Of a stretch of 30,841 nt of DNA, positions 3,091-12,178 are shown one piece after another. The position numbers and the translations under genes were made by a program. How positions within the stretch are numbered: position 1 is the first letter of the stretch; the number at the start of each line of letters is the position of its first letter. Origin of the DNA: a virus. The notes under the pieces are model-generated. The model was not told the origin of the DNA, ran no database searches, and saw only the letters and a list, made by a program, of their open reading frames with translations. Location of the stretch: IMG/VR virus record IMGVR_UViG_3300033149_004666, positions 1 to 30,841 of that record, one strand, 5' to 3'.

Positions 3091-3501
3091 ATGCCAGCCA
3101 TAATAATACAACATGATCCCGATCCAAGAAAGATGGTAGCCGAGATTCTCAGGTCGATCCCCTGCCTGGAGTACTGGTCGGACGATGCTTTGAGAAAGCT
3201 GTATAAGGGGTCTTTCCTTTTGGTTCGAGACCATATCCACACTCTGGAAAGGGAAGGGATCAAGGTCAAGAAATCCTCCTTTTCCCGAAGAATGGGCCAA
3301 GTCCTGAGAAGCAGGGTTCCGCAGCCTGTCAGGTCGATTTTTGAGGAGATTCTATCTGTAGAAAAACTTTCGGTTCTTCATGGGTATGGTCTTTCCAATC
3401 GTTTTGGCGACCGGCTTTATGGAAATCCAGAGAAGCAGAGTATCGTCGAGATCTTGCCATCTCCTCAGAGAACCTACTACAGTAAGAAAGGAACGAAATA
3501 A
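3091..3501 (+). CDS. Hypothetical protein, 136 aa
   Basis: I do not recognise this protein. It starts MPAIIIQHDPDPRKMVAEIL and is a soluble, basic, mostly helical protein with RMGQVLRSRVPQPVRSIFEE in the middle. The ATG at 3091 is preceded by AGGAGG at 3071-3076, an unusually long gap of 14 bases. The same frame is open further upstream to 2908, but that part is an arginine/serine-rich shadow of the neighbouring gene and has no ribosome binding site, so I prefer 3091. It ends by sharing one base with the QueD-like gene (TAATG), so the two are probably co-translated. Its position between replication genes and QueD gives no clear functional hint. Confidence 0.7.
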   Translation: MPAIIIQHDPDPRKMVAEILRSIPCLEYWSDDALRKLYKGSFLLVRDHIHTLEREGIKVKKSSFSRRMGQVLRSRVPQPVRSIFEEILSVEKLSVLHGYGLSNRFGDRLYGNPEKQSIVEILPSPQRTYYSKKGTK

Positions 3502-3851
3502 TGCTCACAGTCACGCGAGTTTTTTGGTTCGAAGCAGCCCATCGTCTCGATGGATACCCTGGGAATTGCCGGAATCTCCACGGACATTCCTACAAGGTGG
3601 AGGTGGAAGTAGGACCGACTCGACTGAATGCCCCTCCTCTACCTTCGATGGTTGTGGATCTGGCTGACCTCAAGAAAGTCGTTCAGCTTGTGATTGATAA
3701 GCTGGATCATTCCTTTCTCAATAGTATTCTGCTCGAACCTACTGTAGAGAATCTTTGTATCTTTATCAAAGATAGTCTTGCACTGGATCTGAATGTGGTT
3801 CGTGTTCGTGTATGGGAGACCCATAGCAGTTATGCCGAATGGAGAAGGTAA
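3501..3851 (+). CDS. queD: 6-carboxytetrahydropterin synthase (QueD/PTPS family)
   Basis: QueD converts 7,8-dihydroneopterin triphosphate to 6-carboxy-tetrahydropterin, an early step toward preQ0 and 7-deazaguanine bases. The 116-residue length is normal for the family. Recognisable features are the zinc histidines in FEAAHRL and NLHGHSY, the preceding cysteine in NCRNLHGH, the VDLADLKK segment, LDHSFLN, PTVENL and the terminal VRVWET..SYAEW with the conserved glutamate. All catalytic elements I expect seem present, so the gene looks intact. It shares the TAATG junction with the following queE remnant. In phages this pathway can supply modified tRNA or 7-deazaguanine DNA bases. FolE, QueC and a DpdA-type transglycosylase are not visible in this window. 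Confidence 0.9.
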   Translation: MLTVTRVFWFEAAHRLDGYPGNCRNLHGHSYKVEVEVGPTRLNAPPLPSMVVDLADLKKVVQLVIDKLDHSFLNSILLEPTVENLCIFIKDSLALDLNVVRVRVWETHSSYAEWRR

Positions 3852-4066
3852 TGGACATCTACATCAAAGAAATATTCCAGTCCATCAGTGGCGAGATTGG
3901 TGAGGCCCTTCTGGCTCAGAGGAACTACACTGGACATCCTCGCATTGCTATGTCCCCGGTTTACGGAAAACTAGATCCGAAGGAATTGTTTAGTTGGATT
4001 GTGGAAGTAGGTCAATTCCATATAATCCTTAATTTGCAGATCCATAAGGTGTTTGGATTTGCATAG
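3851..4066 (+). pseudogene. queE: queE remnant (7-carboxy-7-deazaguanine synthase, radical SAM core deleted)
   Basis: The first ~15 residues, IYIKEIFQSISGE, match the QueE N-terminus (EIFxSIQGEG). The last 40 or so, SPVYGKLDPKELFSWIVE through LNLQIHKVFGFA, match the QueE C-terminus (SPV.G.LDP..LA.WIL...LQLHK). The middle is absent, including the CxxxCxxC cluster motif, and the protein has 71 residues instead of 200 or more. An in-frame internal deletion is the simplest explanation, so this product cannot be a radical SAM enzyme. GGAG at 3841-3844 places the start at ATG 3851 rather than 3839. The family call rests on both ends fitting in the right order next to an intact QueD. Confidence 0.7.
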
Positions 4067-4796: not shown

Positions 4797-5888
4797 ATGA
4801 AAAAAAGGTTGAAAAACGCATTGACAGTACGGGGGGACAGTTTGTATTGCCCCCTCAGTCTGTCTTTGGATTCTTATTGGAATTGTTTGAACGATTGTTG
4901 GCACTGTTGGTTGAGGAAGTTGAATTATGTTTGGGGACAAGATCTTCGCCCGGCCGATCCACAACAAGTGGAAAGAAAATTGGTGAACGGATTGAAAAAC
5001 CGAAATCCTCGGACCAGTTTGGCTTGGGCCTTGAAGCAAAAAAAGACTATTCGATTTGGGAACAAATCAGATCCCTTTCAGAAGGCGGAAAGACGGCATC
5101 GAGTGTCCCAAGAACTGATTCGGATTCTATTGGATTTGGATTGGGAATTCGTGGTACAGACCATGTGTTCTGAGATTCTCATGGATTATTCCGAGGATTT
5201 GGTCCGATCGAAGGAGGGGTGGATATTTCAACCTATCATTTCCCCCGGGGCGGAGGACGATTGGGAAATATTGGAGCGAAGAAGGACCACCCCCATAGAT
5301 CTCCGATTTAAACATTTGTCTTTTTTTAAAAAAAGAGGGGTCCGCGTAGCTGTCAACGGGGAACCTTTCATCCCGGGCTATCATACAACGAAACAATTCG
5401 AAGACCTTGTGAAACGGTTGAAGTCAGGGGGGATAAAAAACTACAACACTTATAATTTTCATTTCAACGATTTCGTTGCGAAGAGACTCCATTCGATTGG
5501 CGTCGATATCCTTAAAATTTGGGAATACAATCAAGACAGAAAATGGAAGTCTATTCAACAAAAGTTGATAGACATATGTAAGAAATATGATATCATTCTC
5601 GGGTGTCCCGATTTTGTTAATTCCGGAAAAGACTACCTCCAGCCCACAAACACTTGTTGCGGAATAGACGTAAGGAACCCTACTACGTTCAACACTCATC
5701 ATTTCAAAAAGGCTTTTCAAGAAGGGCTCCCCCCAGATCGAATTTTGGAACGTTGTTGGGACCATATAGGGGATTTCGAAGATGGGAAAGCTGTCCTTTT
5801 TGGGGAATCGGAGGAGATGTATACGATGAAAGATGCCGGTTTCTCGGTTCCTCGGTCGAAGGACGACAAGGTCGGGTTTTTCCTGTAG
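4797..5888 (+). CDS. Radical SAM enzyme 1 (distantly spore photoproduct lyase-like)
   Basis: A 363-residue radical SAM protein. The cluster motif is C30-x3-C34-x2-C37 (NCLNDCWHCWLRK), which should bind the [4Fe-4S] cluster that cleaves S-adenosylmethionine; C18 lies just before it. Further on come a GNKSDPFQ..E segment, like the NTDPYQ..E element of spore photoproduct lyase-type proteins, and FVVQTMCSEILMDY, FQPIISPG and GVRVAVNGEPFIPG, which fit successive strands of a partial TIM barrel. Later cysteines (NTCCGID) might bind an auxiliary cluster. The substrate is unknown. It is the first of two radical SAM genes followed by a transferase-like gene and a DNA methyltransferase, so nucleic-acid modification or repair is a plausible role. 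Upstream SD is weak (GGTAAG). Confidence 0.85.
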   Translation: MKKRLKNALTVRGDSLYCPLSLSLDSYWNCLNDCWHCWLRKLNYVWGQDLRPADPQQVERKLVNGLKNRNPRTSLAWALKQKKTIRFGNKSDPFQKAERRHRVSQELIRILLDLDWEFVVQTMCSEILMDYSEDLVRSKEGWIFQPIISPGAEDDWEILERRRTTPIDLRFKHLSFFKKRGVRVAVNGEPFIPGYHTTKQFEDLVKRLKSGGIKNYNTYNFHFNDFVAKRLHSIGVDILKIWEYNQDRKWKSIQQKLIDICKKYDIILGCPDFVNSGKDYLQPTNTCCGIDVRNPTTFNTHHFKKAFQEGLPPDRILERCWDHIGDFEDGKAVLFGESEEMYTMKDAGFSVPRSKDDKVGFFL

Positions 5889-5909
5889 ATTGAAAAGAGG
5901 AAAATAATA

Positions 5910-7313
5910 ATGGATTATTGGGAAGTGAGAAAAAGGGCGTCGAAGATAATCCCCCGATTAACCCTATTGGTGAGGGGGGAAAAGAGTGAAGATTATGTGA
6001 AGGAGAAAGGACGAAAGGCGAATTATTCTCAGTTCGATCTTATTCAAGGGAAGTGGGAAAGCAAAAAGAGACTCCTCAATCCCAAAGAGATAAACTCCTT
6101 TTTGGAGATATCAGTAAGAGCAGCCGCGTGTCCTCTGCCTTTCAACATGGATATTTGGGATGGGCTAGTCTGTCCCTTTAATTGTATCTATTGTTATGCT
6201 AATTATTTTCGGGCATCTTTGTATACTTCTTTTTTCGATAATTCTAAGGCAATTGGTTTAAGGCACTGTAACCCTGATTTTTACCGACGAGAAATGGACA
6301 AAATGCTGTATCTTCGGGAGTTGCCCAAAGAGAAAAAAGAGAGTCTCTCGGGGATCAGAAAGGCCTTCTCTTTGGAGATTCCAGTTAGAATGGGCATTCG
6401 GTTCGAGGATTTTTTGCACGTGGAAAGATCTAAAAAGGTAAGTTTGGCGATGATAAAATATTTGTCCGAAATAAATTATCCTCTCATGATAAACACCAAA
6501 TCGGACGTTGTGGGGGAAGAAGAATATGTAGAGGCCCTGTCTTCGATTTCCTCGGGGGCGGCGGTTCACGTAACTGCCCTTACTTCGGACGAAGGCCTTG
6601 TCCGAAAAATAGAACCAGGGGCGCCTTCTTACAAGAAACGGTTAACAGCTATTCGTAATTTGACCCAGGCGGGGGTTCGCGTGGTGGCGCGGATAGAACC
6701 TTATTTGATATTTTTGGTGGATGATCCGGGCAAAGTGGAAGAATACATCGAGACTATGTGGGAGGCCGGGGTCCGCAACATAACTTTCGACACTTATTCT
6801 TATACAGCCATGAGTTCCGGGATTCGGACTTCTTTTCTCAATCGGGACATAGATTATGACCGGTTGTGTCTTTTGGGTTGCGATAGCCAGTTGTTGGGGT
6901 CGTTGTTGTTGGGTCGGTTCATGGAATTATTTAGAAATCGAGGATTTTCTTGTTCCACTTTCGACATGGGGAATGTCCCGAATAACGATCAATCTGTTTG
7001 TTGTGAGGTGGGCGATTGGTTTTCGGGGGGGTTCAATTATGGGTGCTCGGTGATGGCTGCCCGTTTTGTAAAGGAGAGGAAGGGCCCTGTCTCATGGAAA
7101 GACTTTTTTGATTATGTTAAGGACAGAGGGGGGTTTTTGTCCCCGTCATTGGAGGTCGAAGTCCATAGACAGTGGAATTTAGGGGGGAACTCTGCCTATA
7201 GCCATGGTTGGGCTTCGGGGATGGTCCCCTGCGGTTGGGACGAATTCGGGTTGATTTGGAGGTGGGAAGACACGCTCGATTCCCGCAAAGATCTTTTGGA
7301 GGATTTGGTATGA
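5910..7313 (+). CDS. Radical SAM enzyme 2 (SplB/Rv2578c-like)
   Basis: A 467-residue radical SAM protein with a canonical cluster motif C88-PFN-C92-IY-C95-Y, the CxxxCxYCY pattern typical of spore photoproduct lyase-like enzymes. An N-terminal extension of about 85 residues precedes the barrel; downstream strands include PVRMGIRFEDFLHVER, YPLMINTKSDVV, AAVHVTALTSD, VRVVARIEPYL and VRNITFDTYSY. A cysteine-containing tail (NDQSVCCEVGDW..GFNYGCSV) could hold another metal site. It differs clearly from the preceding radical SAM protein, so the two are not a simple recent duplication. An AGAGGAAA lies upstream of the ATG. It overlaps the next gene by ATGA. Substrate unknown; a DNA or nucleotide target is inferred from the neighbours only. 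Confidence 0.88.
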   Translation: MDYWEVRKRASKIIPRLTLLVRGEKSEDYVKEKGRKANYSQFDLIQGKWESKKRLLNPKEINSFLEISVRAAACPLPFNMDIWDGLVCPFNCIYCYANYFRASLYTSFFDNSKAIGLRHCNPDFYRREMDKMLYLRELPKEKKESLSGIRKAFSLEIPVRMGIRFEDFLHVERSKKVSLAMIKYLSEINYPLMINTKSDVVGEEEYVEALSSISSGAAVHVTALTSDEGLVRKIEPGAPSYKKRLTAIRNLTQAGVRVVARIEPYLIFLVDDPGKVEEYIETMWEAGVRNITFDTYSYTAMSSGIRTSFLNRDIDYDRLCLLGCDSQLLGSLLLGRFMELFRNRGFSCSTFDMGNVPNNDQSVCCEVGDWFSGGFNYGCSVMAARFVKERKGPVSWKDFFDYVKDRGGFLSPSLEVEVHRQWNLGGNSAYSHGWASGMVPCGWDEFGLIWRWEDTLDSRKDLLEDLV

Positions 7314-8092
7314 AAATAAGTTCACGGGTGGAGGCCATTTTTTCTCAGGCGGTGGCGTTGGATCAGGGGGGTCGATTCAAAAACAGCATACACGTGATCC
7401 GAAATTCGGTATTTATACTGAATTTCGACCATACCGTGTTATTGAGATTTCGTTTAGGTAAAGGGGAGAATCCTTTTTCACAATCGATCTCTTTTTACGC
7501 TAATGACTATGATGGAAGGAAATTCTACGAGGAAGAAGGGAGGGTGGTTTTTGAAAAAGAAGAGGGGGGATATTTGAGGAAGAAGAGTTGCGGAAGGGCG
7601 GGATTTTCTTCCGAAGAGGTTTTCTCGGTTTTCCGGAAACGACGCTCCGATTTTGAGAAGGAGAAGGAAAAGGCAGTCGTTTCTTTTTCGCCGTCCATTT
7701 TGGGACTTTTGGATCTTAGTTTGAGCCATCTGGAATTTTCGGGGAAAAAGGGGGGATCCATTAGGATGATCCAAAGGGATATTTATACGGGAAGTGTGAT
7801 AGAGGTAGCCCCTTCGGAAGAGAAGGGACTCATGGGAAGTTCTTTGGAAAAGAAATTGGATTTTGATGTGGGTCCTTTGGGTTTGCGAACTGTCGATTTT
7901 CAGGCGTTGTTCTCTTTTCAGAAAACGTTGGAGTTTAATTTTAGCCCGGATTGTGTTTTCGTGAAAAGTTTGGGTCTTTCGGGGATCGATTTTTCTGGAT
8001 TCGTTTCTTGTTGTATGTACGATGAGTTGATTCAGATAAAGGAGGTGGGGGAAGATGGGAGGAAAAAGCCGAAAATCGGGAGGGGTAAGTAA
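7310..8092 (+). CDS. Unknown protein of the radical SAM cassette, 260 aa
   Basis: I do not recognise this 260-residue protein. It begins MKISSRVEAIFSQAVALDQG at an ATG that overlaps the stop of the radical SAM gene (ATGA) and follows TGGAGGA at about 7297-7303. Longer readings of the frame upstream only shadow the preceding gene. The sequence is rich in Phe, Ser, Lys and Glu, with alternating hydrophobic residues that suggest a beta-rich fold. No metal-binding or nucleotide-binding motif is visible. It is coupled to the genes on both sides, so it probably works with them, perhaps as a partner or specificity subunit. That is inference only. Confidence 0.75.
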   Translation: MKISSRVEAIFSQAVALDQGGRFKNSIHVIRNSVFILNFDHTVLLRFRLGKGENPFSQSISFYANDYDGRKFYEEEGRVVFEKEEGGYLRKKSCGRAGFSSEEVFSVFRKRRSDFEKEKEKAVVSFSPSILGLLDLSLSHLEFSGKKGGSIRMIQRDIYTGSVIEVAPSEEKGLMGSSLEKKLDFDVGPLGLRTVDFQALFSFQKTLEFNFSPDCVFVKSLGLSGIDFSGFVSCCMYDELIQIKEVGEDGRKKPKIGRGK

Positions 8093-8210
8093 GGCTTTGG
8101 TAGAGGCTTTGATGAAGGAGAAAAGATCAAAAATTCGCGGGAAGAAGTCCGAGAAGAGAAAACGGAGATTGGGAACCGAGGGATTTGGGTTGATAAAGGA
8201 GTCGGAATGA
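8055..8210 (+). CDS. Tiny highly basic protein, 51 aa
   Basis: A short gene running from ATG 8055 to TGA 8208-8210. The product is 51 residues with about a third Lys/Arg, including KEKRSKIRGKKSEKRKRRLG, and few hydrophobic residues. A strong AAGGAGGTG lies eight bases upstream, and the stop overlaps the next ATG as ATGA (8207-8210), both signs of a genuine translated gene. It overlaps the end of the preceding gene by 38 bases in a different frame. The composition suggests nucleic-acid binding, for example delivery of the cassette's enzymes to DNA or RNA, but no family is recognised. Confidence 0.65.
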   Translation: MGGKSRKSGGVSKALVEALMKEKRSKIRGKKSEKRKRRLGTEGFGLIKESE

Positions 8211-8992
8211 TTTCTCCCCCATTCGCTTTATTCGATTCAATTTTGGAAAGGGGAAAAATCTCCCCTAATTTTTGGTGCTCCTCCGAATATTTCGAAAAAG
8301 CAAATTTTCGGATTGAGATAATAGAAGGGAAGTGGATAGAGGTTTGGGAAGGGGATCAACTAATTTTTCCCGCAGTATCCGACCGTTATCCTTTTCAAAA
8401 GGAGGTGATCGGGGAAGTGTCGTGGTCGGATTTCGAAGAATCTTTCTTCTTTGTAGGGCATCGGGTCTTTTTGGATTATGAGTACATCTATGATCCTAAT
8501 TCTTTTTCGGATTTGTCCGGGGGGAAATGGAAGGTTTTTCGGAAGAATCTGAAAAAGTGGCCTTCCTTGAATCCGGGTTGGAAATACGAACGGTTGTCAG
8601 GGGGTTCTGAGGAAATTTTTGAGGTGGCCCTAGATTGGGCAGAATCTTTGGGGGAGGAAAATATTCATGATCATGAACTTCTTCTGAAATATTTGGAATT
8701 TGGCGAGAACAAAAAGGGGGTACGGGACGGAAAAGGGATTCTTCGAGCAGTAAATATTTGGGATTCTAATTGGAAATATATCAATTTTCGATATTGTTTA
8801 TGTAAATCAGAACCTTTTTTGAGCGAATTTGCCCGATATCTGTTTTATACCGATCCCGAGATTTTGGAGAAAGGGAAAAAGGTGAATGATGGGGGAACTC
8901 TGGGGCGGGATTCTTTGAAACGATTTAAGGACAAATTGAATCCTTATCGCGTGAGAAAAGTTTTTTCTTGGGATTGGTCCAAACAAGAATAG
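8207..8992 (+). CDS. DUF2156/GNAT-like transferase
   Basis: The 261-residue protein resembles the DUF2156 / phosphatidylglycerol lysyltransferase C-terminal fold, a tandem GNAT-type domain. The supporting segments are EYIYDPNSFSDLSGGKW (family: DYIY....L..L.GKKW), followed by a basic FRKNLKKW, and the C-terminal VNDGGTLGRDSLKRFKDKLN (family: N.GG.LG..GL..FK....P). Members of this fold transfer acyl or aminoacyl groups. The order of radical SAM genes, this gene and a DNA methyltransferase suggests it may act on a base or nucleotide intermediate; that is inference. It has no membrane segments, so a lipid-lysylating role is unlikely. The ATG overlaps the stop of the basic protein gene. The family call is moderate because it was made by eye. 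Confidence 0.6.
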   Translation: MISPPFALFDSILERGKISPNFWCSSEYFEKANFRIEIIEGKWIEVWEGDQLIFPAVSDRYPFQKEVIGEVSWSDFEESFFFVGHRVFLDYEYIYDPNSFSDLSGGKWKVFRKNLKKWPSLNPGWKYERLSGGSEEIFEVALDWAESLGEENIHDHELLLKYLEFGENKKGVRDGKGILRAVNIWDSNWKYINFRYCLCKSEPFLSEFARYLFYTDPEILEKGKKVNDGGTLGRDSLKRFKDKLNPYRVRKVFSWDWSKQE

Positions 8993-9032
8993 ATTAAAGA
9001 AACCTGTGGTTTTTGGGATATAGGAGGCGGTT

Positions 9033-9989
9033 TTGGTATTTGACCAGGAAATACAGGATGAAGGTTTTGGGTTTCACACAATGCGCTTCCTCCCCGGTTT
9101 ATCGGGGAAGTTTGGGGTGCCCCCATTTTCGGTTCTGAGAATGGAGGGTTTAGAATGGAAGAAACGGAAAAAACAATGGTTGTCTTTAGGGATTCAGAGC
9201 GAAATCGGCCGATCTAACCAGTTGACTTTTCGTTCAACCGGGTGGTTTTCCCAAGAGATCGAAAAGAGAGGCGGCGGCGTCTCCATTTTTGACCCGGTCT
9301 TATGTGAATTGATGTATTCGTGGTTTTGTCCTTCTGGTGGACGAATAATAGACCCGTTTGCGGGGGGATCGGTGAGGGGGATCGTTGCGGCCGTTTTGGG
9401 ACGAGGATATTGGGGCTGTGATCTCAGAAAAGAACAAATAGAATCCAATAATATTCAGGCAGAAAAGATACTTACGGAGACGATGACCGCCCCCGTTTGG
9501 GTATGTGGGGATTCTTTTAATGAGGCGAAAAACGCACCATTGTCCGATTTTGTTTTTAGTTGCCCGCCATATGGTGATTTAGAAAGATATAGTGATGTTT
9601 CGGGAGATTTAAGCAATTTTTCTGATTATTCAAGTTTTCTCAATCGTTACGAAAAAATAATTTACAGAACCCTAAAGCGTTTGAAAGATAATAGGTTTGC
9701 TTGTTTTGTAGTGGGGAATTATCGGGATAAGAAATCTGGTAAATTGAGGAATTTTGTTGGGGATACGGTGCGTATTTTTGATGAGTGTGGGGCATATTTT
9801 TATAACGAGATGATTCTGGTTAGTCCGGCCGGAACATTGCCAATTCGTGTTGGAAAACAATTTGAAAAAAGCAGAAAGATAGGAAGATGCCATCAGTCTG
9901 TTTTGGTTTTCTTTAAAGGGGATTTGAAGAATGTCAGCAAAATAGTGGAGGGATTAAATGAAAAAGGCGATAGAGGCGAAAGAAAATAG
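9033..9989 (+). CDS. Phage DNA methyltransferase (N6-adenine / N4-cytosine type)
   Basis: A DNA methyltransferase using S-adenosylmethionine. The N-terminal region carries FGVPPFSVL, KKQWLSLGIQSEIGR, a signature shared by a large group of phage methylases. The SAM-binding motif I is DPFAGGSVRG at 107-116, and the catalytic motif IV is SCPPY at 176-180, followed by GDLERYSD. Downstream are FACFVVGNYRDKKSG, RNFVGDTVRIF and HQSVLVFFKGD, all typical of this group. The catalytic residues are intact. The start is TTG 9033, five bases after AGGAGG; an ATG at 9081 is a weaker alternative. It ends 32 bases inside the clamp gene. The target base and recognition site cannot be read from the sequence. 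It could protect phage DNA or finish the cassette's modification. Confidence 0.9.
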   Translation: MVFDQEIQDEGFGFHTMRFLPGLSGKFGVPPFSVLRMEGLEWKKRKKQWLSLGIQSEIGRSNQLTFRSTGWFSQEIEKRGGGVSIFDPVLCELMYSWFCPSGGRIIDPFAGGSVRGIVAAVLGRGYWGCDLRKEQIESNNIQAEKILTETMTAPVWVCGDSFNEAKNAPLSDFVFSCPPYGDLERYSDVSGDLSNFSDYSSFLNRYEKIIYRTLKRLKDNRFACFVVGNYRDKKSGKLRNFVGDTVRIFDECGAYFYNEMILVSPAGTLPIRVGKQFEKSRKIGRCHQSVLVFFKGDLKNVSKIVEGLNEKGDRGERK

Positions 9990-10641
9990 GAAGTCTTTTT
10001 TGGAATGTATTGAGAAGATTAAACCAGGGGTATCTGACAAGGTTTTTTTGGATCAATCAGATCATGTGGTTTTCCTAGGCGGCCGGGTATACTCCTACAA
10101 TGATGAAATTTCGGTGAGTGCCCCCTTATCGTTATCCGGTGCGACGATAGAAGGAGCTGTGGTGGCGAAGGAATTACATGGGATCTTGAAACGAATGAAG
10201 GGGGAGACCGTAGAGATATTATTGAAAGAGGATGAATTAATCCTGTCGTCCGGTAAGTTTAGGTCTGGTTTGAAATTCAACAGAGACCTGCGTCTGCCCC
10301 TAGAAATGTATCAAGAAGAAGAGGATTGGGAATGGACCTCCCTTCCCTCAGATTTTCTTCAGGCGGTTTCTTTCGTCCAATTTTCTGTTTCGCGGGATCC
10401 GAGTTATCCCATCTTAAATTGTATATATGTCCATGAGGATTGCGCCGATGCCACGGATAATTATCGGATTATTCGATATCGGACGAAGAAAAAAATCAGC
10501 ACTCCCTTCTTGTTGCCGGGCCACGTGGTGAGGGACATGAAGAACGGGGATTTCCGGGAGGTTTGCGTTCATGATTCTTGGGTTCATCTTCGGGCCCGGC
10601 CCAGGAGAGGAGGCGAAAGGCCGTTTGATTCTGCCTCGTAA
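9958..10641 (+). CDS. dnaN: DnaN-like beta sliding clamp, domains I-II (frame broken)
   Basis: This is the N-terminal two thirds of a sliding clamp that would tether the polymerase. Domain I is seen in FLDQSDHVVFLGGRVYSYND, GAVVAKELHGILKRMK and LLKEDELILSSGKFRSGLKF. Domain II is seen in DFLQAVSFVQFSVSRD, LNCIYVHEDCADATDNYRI and STPFLLPGHVVRDMK. From about 10590 the frame turns into Arg-rich sequence and stops at 10641, while domain III continues in the +1 frame. A stretch of roughly 20 residues that normally lies between HDSWVHLRA and the domain III start also seems missing, so a deletion with frame change fits better than a single-base slip. GGAGGG seven bases upstream supports ATG 9958. Confidence 0.8.
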   Translation: MKKAIEAKENRKSFLECIEKIKPGVSDKVFLDQSDHVVFLGGRVYSYNDEISVSAPLSLSGATIEGAVVAKELHGILKRMKGETVEILLKEDELILSSGKFRSGLKFNRDLRLPLEMYQEEEDWEWTSLPSDFLQAVSFVQFSVSRDPSYPILNCIYVHEDCADATDNYRIIRYRTKKKISTPFLLPGHVVRDMKNGDFREVCVHDSWVHLRARPRRGGERPFDSAS

Positions 10642-10942
10642 GATTGCGGATATGATAGAGAGAAGCTCGGTGTTTTTTTCTTCGACTGATTCCAAGTTTG
10701 ATCGTGAGGTTGAGGTGGAAGTCGAGAAAGGCAAATTCATTCTAAAAGGAAAGAGTGAGGCGGGATGGAGCGAGGAGGAAGCTAATGTGAGATATGAGGG
10801 GGTGCCTGTGTCTTTTCGGATTAATCCGGATTTTCTGAGCGAGATTTCCAACGAAATTCGTGAATGCGTAGTAGGGGAACGAACTATTCTGTTTGAGGGG
10901 GATAATTGGACTCATGTGATCGCTTTGAGGAAGGCGGGATAG
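10571..10942 (+). CDS. dnaN: DnaN-like beta sliding clamp, domain III (shifted frame)
   Basis: The frame continues the clamp from about 10595: EEAKGRLILPRKIADMIERS, VEVEVEKGKFILKGKSEAGW, then VSFRINPDFLSEIS and GDNWTHVIALRKAG at the end, which is the domain III pattern. It has no good ribosome binding site at ATG 10571. A TTG at 10626 does have AGGAGG about 11 bases upstream (near 10609-10614), so a separately translated domain III cannot be excluded. The natural reading is the second half of a gene broken by a frame change. It ends immediately before the glycosylase-exonuclease gene (TAG then ATG). Confidence 0.75.
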   Translation: MILGFIFGPGPGEEAKGRLILPRKIADMIERSSVFFSSTDSKFDREVEVEVEKGKFILKGKSEAGWSEEEANVRYEGVPVSFRINPDFLSEISNEIRECVVGERTILFEGDNWTHVIALRKAG

Positions 10943-12178
10943 ATGGAAGGATTTTTCGATTCCAAAGGCATTGCCCCTGCCTATGTAGGGGGTCTTCTCC
11001 ATTCTTGTTCCCGTTGCGGGTTGTACCGACATGTCCTCAACCCCCGAATTGAGGCCTATGGCAAAGGGGAAAAGGGGATCCTAGTCATAGGCGAGGCCCC
11101 GGGGGAATGGGAGGATAAGAAGGGTAAGCCTTGGCAGGGGAAGATAGGGAGGAAACACCGGCGCAAATTGGAATCCCTCGGGATCGACCTTTTCCGGGAT
11201 TGTGTTAGCATCAATTCGGTCAATTGCCGCCCCCCACGCAATCGAACCCCTCGGCCTAATGAAATTGATTGTTGTCGTCCTCGGGTTTGGAAAGTCATCC
11301 AAGAAACGCAACCTCGTCTTATCTTATTGGCAGGAAATGCGGCTATTCAATCCTTCTTAGGGCATCGCTGGAAGAAAGACCTAGGCGGGATCACAAAATG
11401 GCGAGGGTGGACTATTCCCGATAGGGACGTGAAAGCCTGGGTTTGTCCCGTTTTCCACCCTTCTTACGTAGGCCGATCCGACAACAGAGGAAGTCCTCAT
11501 GAAACGATATGGACGCAGGATCTGGAAAGGGCCTTGGGTTGTTTAGGCCAAGACTTTCCCTATTTCAAAGATGAGGAATCATGCGTTGAGATCCTTCTTG
11601 AATCTGATCGGATCCGGGCGTTTCTGAAACAATTAGCTCAGGACGCCGAAGAACTTCCTGTTCATGCCCCCACACCCTTGGTCGCCTTCGACTACGAGAC
11701 TACGGGCTTGAAGCCGCATTCCGAGGGCCATGAAGTGGTATGCGTCTCGGTGTCCCCTTCCCCCGACGAGGTGGTTGCCTTTCCCGTAACGAGGGGGATC
11801 AAAGGGATCTTCCGCCGTCTTTTCCTAGCCAACCCAACTATAGGCAAGATGGCACATAGTATGAAGTTTGAGGACACGTGGAGTCGTTTTTTCTTCAATA
11901 CCCATGTCCAGGGGTGGAAATGGGACAGCATGCTGGCCGCCCACATCTTGGACAATCGTGATGGGGTCACGGGACTGAAATTTCAGTCATACGTCCATTT
12001 TGGCTTGGTGGATTATGATAGCGGCATCGCCCCTTTCCTTAAGAGCAATTCCAAATCCGCCAATGCCATGAACAGAGTTAAGGAAGTCCCGTTGGAGGAT
12101 CTCTTAACCTATTGTGCGATGGATTCCTTGTTAGAGCACCGTCTCGCCCTTCTACAGATGGAGAAAATACTGAAATGA
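10943..12178 (+). CDS. Family 4 uracil-DNA glycosylase fused to a DEDD 3'-5' exonuclease
   Basis: A fusion protein of 411 residues. Residues 1-205 form a family 4 uracil-DNA glycosylase: cluster cysteines C22, C25, C95 and C110/C111, the uracil-pocket motif GEAPGEWED at 50-58 with KGKPWQG, the strand LILLAGNAAIQSFLG, and HPSY at 172-175. Residues 240-411 form a proofreading exonuclease like the PolA 3'-5' domain: Exo I VAFDYETTGL (D250, E252), Exo II HSMKFEDTW, Exo III TYCAMDSLLEHRLALL. The gene precedes the polymerase core and overlaps it by ATGA, so the exonuclease probably acts in trans as proofreader. Fusing uracil recognition to proofreading suggests recognition or removal of uracil during replication, which is inference. 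Both active-site sets look complete. Confidence 0.88.
   Translation: MEGFFDSKGIAPAYVGGLLHSCSRCGLYRHVLNPRIEAYGKGEKGILVIGEAPGEWEDKKGKPWQGKIGRKHRRKLESLGIDLFRDCVSINSVNCRPPRNRTPRPNEIDCCRPRVWKVIQETQPRLILLAGNAAIQSFLGHRWKKDLGGITKWRGWTIPDRDVKAWVCPVFHPSYVGRSDNRGSPHETIWTQDLERALGCLGQDFPYFKDEESCVEILLESDRIRAFLKQLAQDAEELPVHAPTPLVAFDYETTGLKPHSEGHEVVCVSVSPSPDEVVAFPVTRGIKGIFRRLFLANPTIGKMAHSMKFEDTWSRFFFNTHVQGWKWDSMLAAHILDNRDGVTGLKFQSYVHFGLVDYDSGIAPFLKSNSKSANAMNRVKEVPLEDLLTYCAMDSLLEHRLALLQMEKILK

Follow-up and report, generated by a model that had tools for sequence, protein, structure and literature searches.

A block of closely packed genes in the IMG/VR virus record IMGVR_UViG_3300033149_004666 raises the question of what two radical SAM enzymes, a transferase and their small neighbours are doing amid the replication genes of a phage. 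The whole stretch of DNA analysed, 30,841 bases long, is referred to as the window. A preliminary description had proposed six open reading frames here, all of which are found, with their starts correctly given (Table 1). The close packing that it pointed out is real, RS2/UNK and MIC/GNAT being joined by ATGA overlaps and UNK and MIC overlapping by 38 nt, as is the distinct composition, with a GC content of 0.42-0.46 across positions 5000-10000 and of 0.47-0.52 in the flanks. There is also a strong bias of G over C (GC skew 0.33-0.37 over 7000-10000). The setting is a replication module on both sides: DnaB-like and DnaC-like genes, named by sequence and position, lie upstream, while genes for a beta-clamp-like protein, a UDG-exonuclease, a family A polymerase, a clamp loader, RecA and a 5'-3' exonuclease lie downstream. 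The beta-clamp-like gene, a single ORF in relatives, is divided into two overlapping frames in the window, apparently through a frameshift or a sequencing error. The uracil-DNA glycosylase, fused with a 3'-5' exonuclease domain (10943-12178), adjoins the polymerase gene, and in several relatives this fusion ends in an LPF C-terminus resembling clamp-binding tails.

Table 1. Positions of the genes of the block and of the adjoining clamp gene in the window.
Feature	Positions	Strand	Basis
RS1, radical SAM protein, SPL/PA0069-type	4797..5888	+	profile matches, alignment
RS2, radical SAM protein, SPL/Rv2578c-type	5910..7313	+	profile matches, alignment
UNK, predicted PCNA-like two-domain clamp protein	7310..8092	+	AlphaFold2 and Foldseek
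MIC, basic protein, 51 aa	8055..8210	+	alignment
GNAT, DUF2156/LPG-synthase-C/FemX-type transferase	8207..8992	+	weak PF09924, AlphaFold2 and Foldseek
N6/N4 DNA methyltransferase, outside the conserved core	9033..9989	+	PF01555; phrog_12517, phrog 498
Beta-clamp-like processivity factor, flanking replication gene	9958..10942	+	phrog_947

Whether these genes form a system was judged from their distribution. Scanning IMG/VR with RS2, GNAT and RS1 as baits, with the addition of GTDB contigs, gave 82 non-redundant groups, and the core was counted on the 43 non-redundant phage contigs that span DnaB to the clamp gene. RS1, RS2, UNK, MIC and GNAT are all present in 42 of these, nearly always in the same order, although the force of this co-occurrence is weakened by the contigs also sharing the replication module, which partly reflects the descent of one phage group. 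RS1-RS2-UNK-MIC-GNAT (4797-8992) is hence a fixed core, and the proposal of an undescribed modification cassette, which would have suffered had the genes been found apart, is supported. RS2 is the best-conserved core protein, with a median pairwise identity of 0.55, against 0.40 for the polymerase and 0.29 for DnaB. The sole exception (L081, 2306-8885) retains GNAT and is missing RS1, RS2, UNK and MIC; in the interval from DnaB to GNAT it encodes a TET-associated glycosyltransferase, and a TAGT glycosyltransferase is found above the cut-off in four records. Other insertions are an RtcB-type RNA ligase gene between RS2 and UNK (L022:9401-10579) and an amidoligase-like gene (PF12224) between a PLP gene and RS2 (L026:6523-7440).

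The sixth gene does not travel with the other five. Its identity as a DNA methyltransferase is upheld by PF01555, with a TTG start codon, but a methyltransferase of the window's type is carried by only 5 of the 43 relatives, and relatives about 45% identical occur in ordinary phages; it was therefore rejected as a core member. A QueD gene followed by a QueE frame (3501-4066) was likewise set aside, as the pair is confined to the window and QueE is broken, its N-terminal start and C-terminal end remaining around a missing radical SAM core. The window thus has QueD without the intact QueE that would accompany it in queuosine or 7-deazaguanine synthesis, and no PTPS (PF01242) was detected in 34 relatives.

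The core is found in no cultured phage. By tblastn against 50,697 cultured-phage records, RS1, UNK and GNAT give no match and RS2 just three partial matches (23-35%), none of them convincing. The whole block or part of it occurs on three contigs from GTDB, binned as Thioalkalivibrio, Bacteroidota and Bacillota, which may represent hosts or mis-binned phages. In the literature open to searching, most subscription papers and preprints lying beyond reach, no description of the five-gene core was found.

Both radical SAM proteins carry the CX3CX2C motif and match phrog_13321 and the NCBIfam rSAM_PA0069/Rv2578c models, in agreement with the two enzymes originally claimed; as the scores for these models are far under the equivalog cut-offs, the assignment is to the superfamily only. 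Matches to PF04055 are 2.4e-5 for RS2, under the curated cut-off, and a weak 0.21 for RS1. The two proteins do look dissimilar, as had been noted, but profile comparison finds them to be homologous (hhalign 99.7%, E 4e-27), and their sequences place them as distant paralogues within the SPL/Rv2578c/PA0069 type. In alignments they share an invariant extra cysteine upstream of the motif and an invariant CC pair downstream: in RS1 the motif is at C30/C34/C37 and C18, C287 and C288 are also invariant, and in RS2 it is at C88/C92/C95, with C74, C120, C364 and C365. The extra cysteine cannot serve as a phage-specific mark, because archaeal radical SAM proteins with 24-27% identity to RS2 (contigs L049, L050 and L051) have it too, as does gp12 of phage YuA. 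Orthology of RS2 and YuA gp12 also found no support, since the RS2 profile does not match gp12, to which RS2 is no closer than it is to the archaeal proteins. Nor do RS1 and RS2 qualify as spore photoproduct lyase proper: Pfam SPL (PF20903) has no match in the window, and one relative reaches 12.9 bits where the cut-off is 27. PDB sequence searches with RS1 and RS2 returned no match.

Structure prediction provides candidate roles for the other core proteins. UNK, listed in the preliminary description as an unknown protein, now models as a PCNA-like two-domain clamp (AlphaFold2 pLDDT 86.6, pTM 0.84). Its best 50 Foldseek matches in the PDB are all PCNA or 9-1-1 clamps (best E 6e-8), with TM-scores near 0.5 for a monomer model, which makes this an assignment of fold and not proof of a ring. 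The beta-clamp-like gene of the same phage is separate from UNK. MIC begins with MGGKSRK in nearly all copies, GGKSRK being invariant, and is variable thereafter; its tail is hydrophilic except for a hydrophobic LF/LL/GLGF patch at the C-terminus in 53 of 59 sequences (shuffled mean 13, maximum 22), which could be a clamp-binding tail. A common C-terminal clamp-binding motif over RS1, RS2 and other proteins was sought and rejected, as only MIC and, more weakly, the variable c9 family beat shuffled sequences. In c9 (e.g. L040:4589-5305), which is possibly methyltransferase-like, a MIC-like patch is present in 10 of 14 sequences, the shuffled maximum being 8.

For GNAT, the DUF2156/GNAT-like transferase originally suggested is borne out by PF09924 at 0.0093, a Pfam score below the cut-off, and by the fold search. 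The predicted model (pLDDT 90.8, pTM 0.89) has the double-GNAT fold of DUF2156/LPG-synthase-C/FemX transferases, its Foldseek matches being the DUF2156 protein 2hqy, LPG synthases, MprF, FemX and Sbb17. From this modelled fold we infer that GNAT would draw on aminoacyl-tRNA.

The genes that vary around the core tie it to known DNA chemistry. In thymidine hypermodification, amino acids are put on 5-hmdU and then trimmed by radical SAM isomerases, PLP decarboxylases, flavin lyases and acetyltransferases. Among the 43 contigs, all but one with radical SAM genes, PLP genes accompany RS1/RS2 in 20, c9 in 13, aldo/keto reductases (AKR) in 10, DUF362 in four and flavin oxidases in two. The window itself has no PLP, flavin, AKR, c9 or DUF362 gene and, of tailoring-type enzymes, the radical SAM proteins alone. 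The cassette PLP protein is homologous over its full length to YuA gp11/SN1_023 (38%, 266 bits), and the cassette flavin (FAD) protein to PaMx11 gp47 (133 bits). Adjoining gp11 is YuA gp12, an SPL-like radical SAM protein that matches phrog_13321 as RS1 and RS2 do. YuA, SN1 and PaMx11 are phages carrying thymidine-hypermodification gene sets: Pfam ADDT, HMUDK and Nmad5 all have matches among the proteins of YuA, and the SN1 annotation includes alpha-glutamyl/putrescinyl thymine enzymes, a radical SAM protein, a kinase, Nmad5 and a pyrimidine hydroxymethylase. The distance from thymidine hypermodification that had been suggested for the cassette does not stand, about half of the relatives having a YuA gp11-like PLP gene and a few a PaMx11 gp47-like oxidase.

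What did stand is the observation that neither a hydroxymethylase nor a kinase can be seen, which holds for nearly the whole group. The amino acid:DNA transferase ADDT (PF18724) and the 5-hmdU kinase HMUDK_hel (PF18723) are found in none of 58 cassette records, and the 5-hmdU kinase HMUDK_HMUD1 (PF18748) in none of 51; the controls are positive, YuA and SN1 for ADDT and HMUDK_hel, and YuA for HMUDK_HMUD1. Members of the thymidylate-synthase family (PF00303), to which dUMP hydroxymethylases belong, occur in three of the 58, none in the window. The records searched include some of 60-172 kb; most of the records are fragments, which leaves such absences incomplete. The combination of hydroxymethylase, kinase and ADDT that marks 5-hmdU-derived hypermodification is accordingly not seen. 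A search for Tet_JBP (PF12851) was negative and had no positive control.

The tailoring genes have also changed repeatedly. A tree of 41 RS2 sequences shows at least 14 changes for PLP, 10 for c9 and seven for AKR. Such exchange of tailoring enzymes around a constant core is the pattern that would be expected of a chemical camouflage system. RS1 exists in two variants in the relatives, the divergent one about 22% identical to the RS1 of the window (three DUF362 loci aligned), and on four of four independent occasions this variant and DUF362 change together, a number of pairs with which a sign test cannot reach significance. The pattern is a hint that RS1 determines which chemistry is passed on to DUF362 or PLP.

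Taken together, the content, order and conservation of the genes, the predicted folds, the YuA/PaMx11-type tailoring genes, the missing starting enzymes and the repeated gene swaps make it reasonably probable that the five genes are the core of a pathway by which phages hypermodify DNA bases, of the amino-acid type and entered by a new step. The best reading of that step is that it is hydroxymethyl-independent, and the module is probably attached to the replisome. PCNA-like UNK would sit on the phage DNA, with MIC helping to keep the enzymes there, and the FemX/LPG-synthase-like GNAT would bring an aminoacyl (or acyl) group. RS2 and one of the two kinds of RS1 may activate a C-H bond of the base, most likely thymine for SPL-type enzymes, and fix or rearrange the group, which could then be trimmed by enzymes that differ between lineages: PLP, flavin oxidase together with aldo/keto reductase, c9 or DUF362. 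A more specific version, offered tentatively, is that the phage's own PCNA-like clamp holds the machine on DNA, the SPL-type radical SAM proteins functionalise a standard base directly and the FemX-like enzyme adds an amino acid taken off an aminoacyl-tRNA, which would make a hydroxymethylated precursor unnecessary.

Some of the same observations can be read differently. The homology of the PLP and flavin genes with YuA and PaMx11 genes would suit conventional thymidine hypermodification by way of 5-hmdU, with starting enzymes that are encoded at some other place in the genome, have diverged beyond detection or are supplied by the host, and many records are indeed fragmentary. This is unlikely given the absence of ADDT and both kinases and the rarity of the thymidylate-synthase family despite the longer records; moreover, the YuA, SN1 and PaMx11 regions have no detectable counterpart of UNK, MIC or GNAT. 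Membership of the SPL superfamily, a PCNA-like partner and the replication-module setting would also be consistent with DNA repair, with RS1 and RS2 guided by a clamp to undo base lesions in the manner of spore photoproduct lyase. Such a function would leave unexplained the FemX-like transferase and the exchange of genes for PLP, flavin, AKR and DUF362 proteins, and with the SPL Pfam match under its cut-off it is quite unlikely.

Two further alternatives change the substrate. FemX-type enzymes aminoacylate peptides, and MIC, short, placed between UNK and GNAT and with an invariant N-terminus and variable remainder recalling a leader and core, might be what GNAT and the two radical SAM proteins modify, either as something like a RiPP precursor or as a modified replisome peptide. 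The sole conserved C-terminal feature of MIC is a hydrophobic patch, however, and the YuA-type PLP and flavin genes derive from phages with DNA-modification gene sets, making this very improbable. Modification of host tRNA or rRNA seems more remote still: the fold relatives of GNAT use aminoacyl-tRNA and an RtcB gene interrupts the block in one relative, yet the block lies between DnaB and the clamp and polymerase genes, and the clamp-like UNK, TAGT and the YuA-type partners point to DNA.

If the hypermodification reading is true, a diverse group of uncultured phages can put amino acids on DNA bases without hydroxymethylation, by a second route in which the core is constant and the tailoring enzymes are interchangeable. 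DNA modification would then be linked to a clamp of its own, and SPL-like radical SAM proteins would gain a new function. Bases altered in this way might serve in evading restriction and be a source of new DNA chemistry. Cultured phages are known to have radical SAM genes, two Campylobacter phages, for example, carrying 11 or 12, and the DNA of many Campylobacter phages is resistant to standard restriction enzymes (PMC2853527).

Among known systems, the Yuavirus/Abidjanvirus sets of YuA, SN1 and PaMx11 resemble the cassette in having an SPL-like radical SAM gene beside the gene for a PLP enzyme of which cassette relatives have a homologue, in the flavin oxidase homologous to PaMx11 gp47 and in tailoring genes that vary between phages. 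By contrast, the cassette phages lack the 5-hmdU kinase and ADDT and have almost no thymidylate-synthase family members, while possessing a different transferase and the additional clamp-like UNK and MIC. The aminoacyl-tRNA transferases MprF/LPG synthase, FemX and Sbb17 share the predicted fold of GNAT at an identity of just 9-16%. To our knowledge, Mom of phage Mu acts without radical SAM partners. Its likeness to GNAT lies in belonging to the GNAT superfamily and in modifying a base of DNA (PMC7824862). Amino acids reach phage bases by another route in the carboxymethylcytosine pathway CmoA/CmoX/CmoY, where, as proposed here, a handle is made first and the amino acid follows, on phage DNA; that pathway differs in using a C5-methyltransferase and an ATP-dependent ligase, radical enzymes being unmentioned in the text of its description (PMC12783734).
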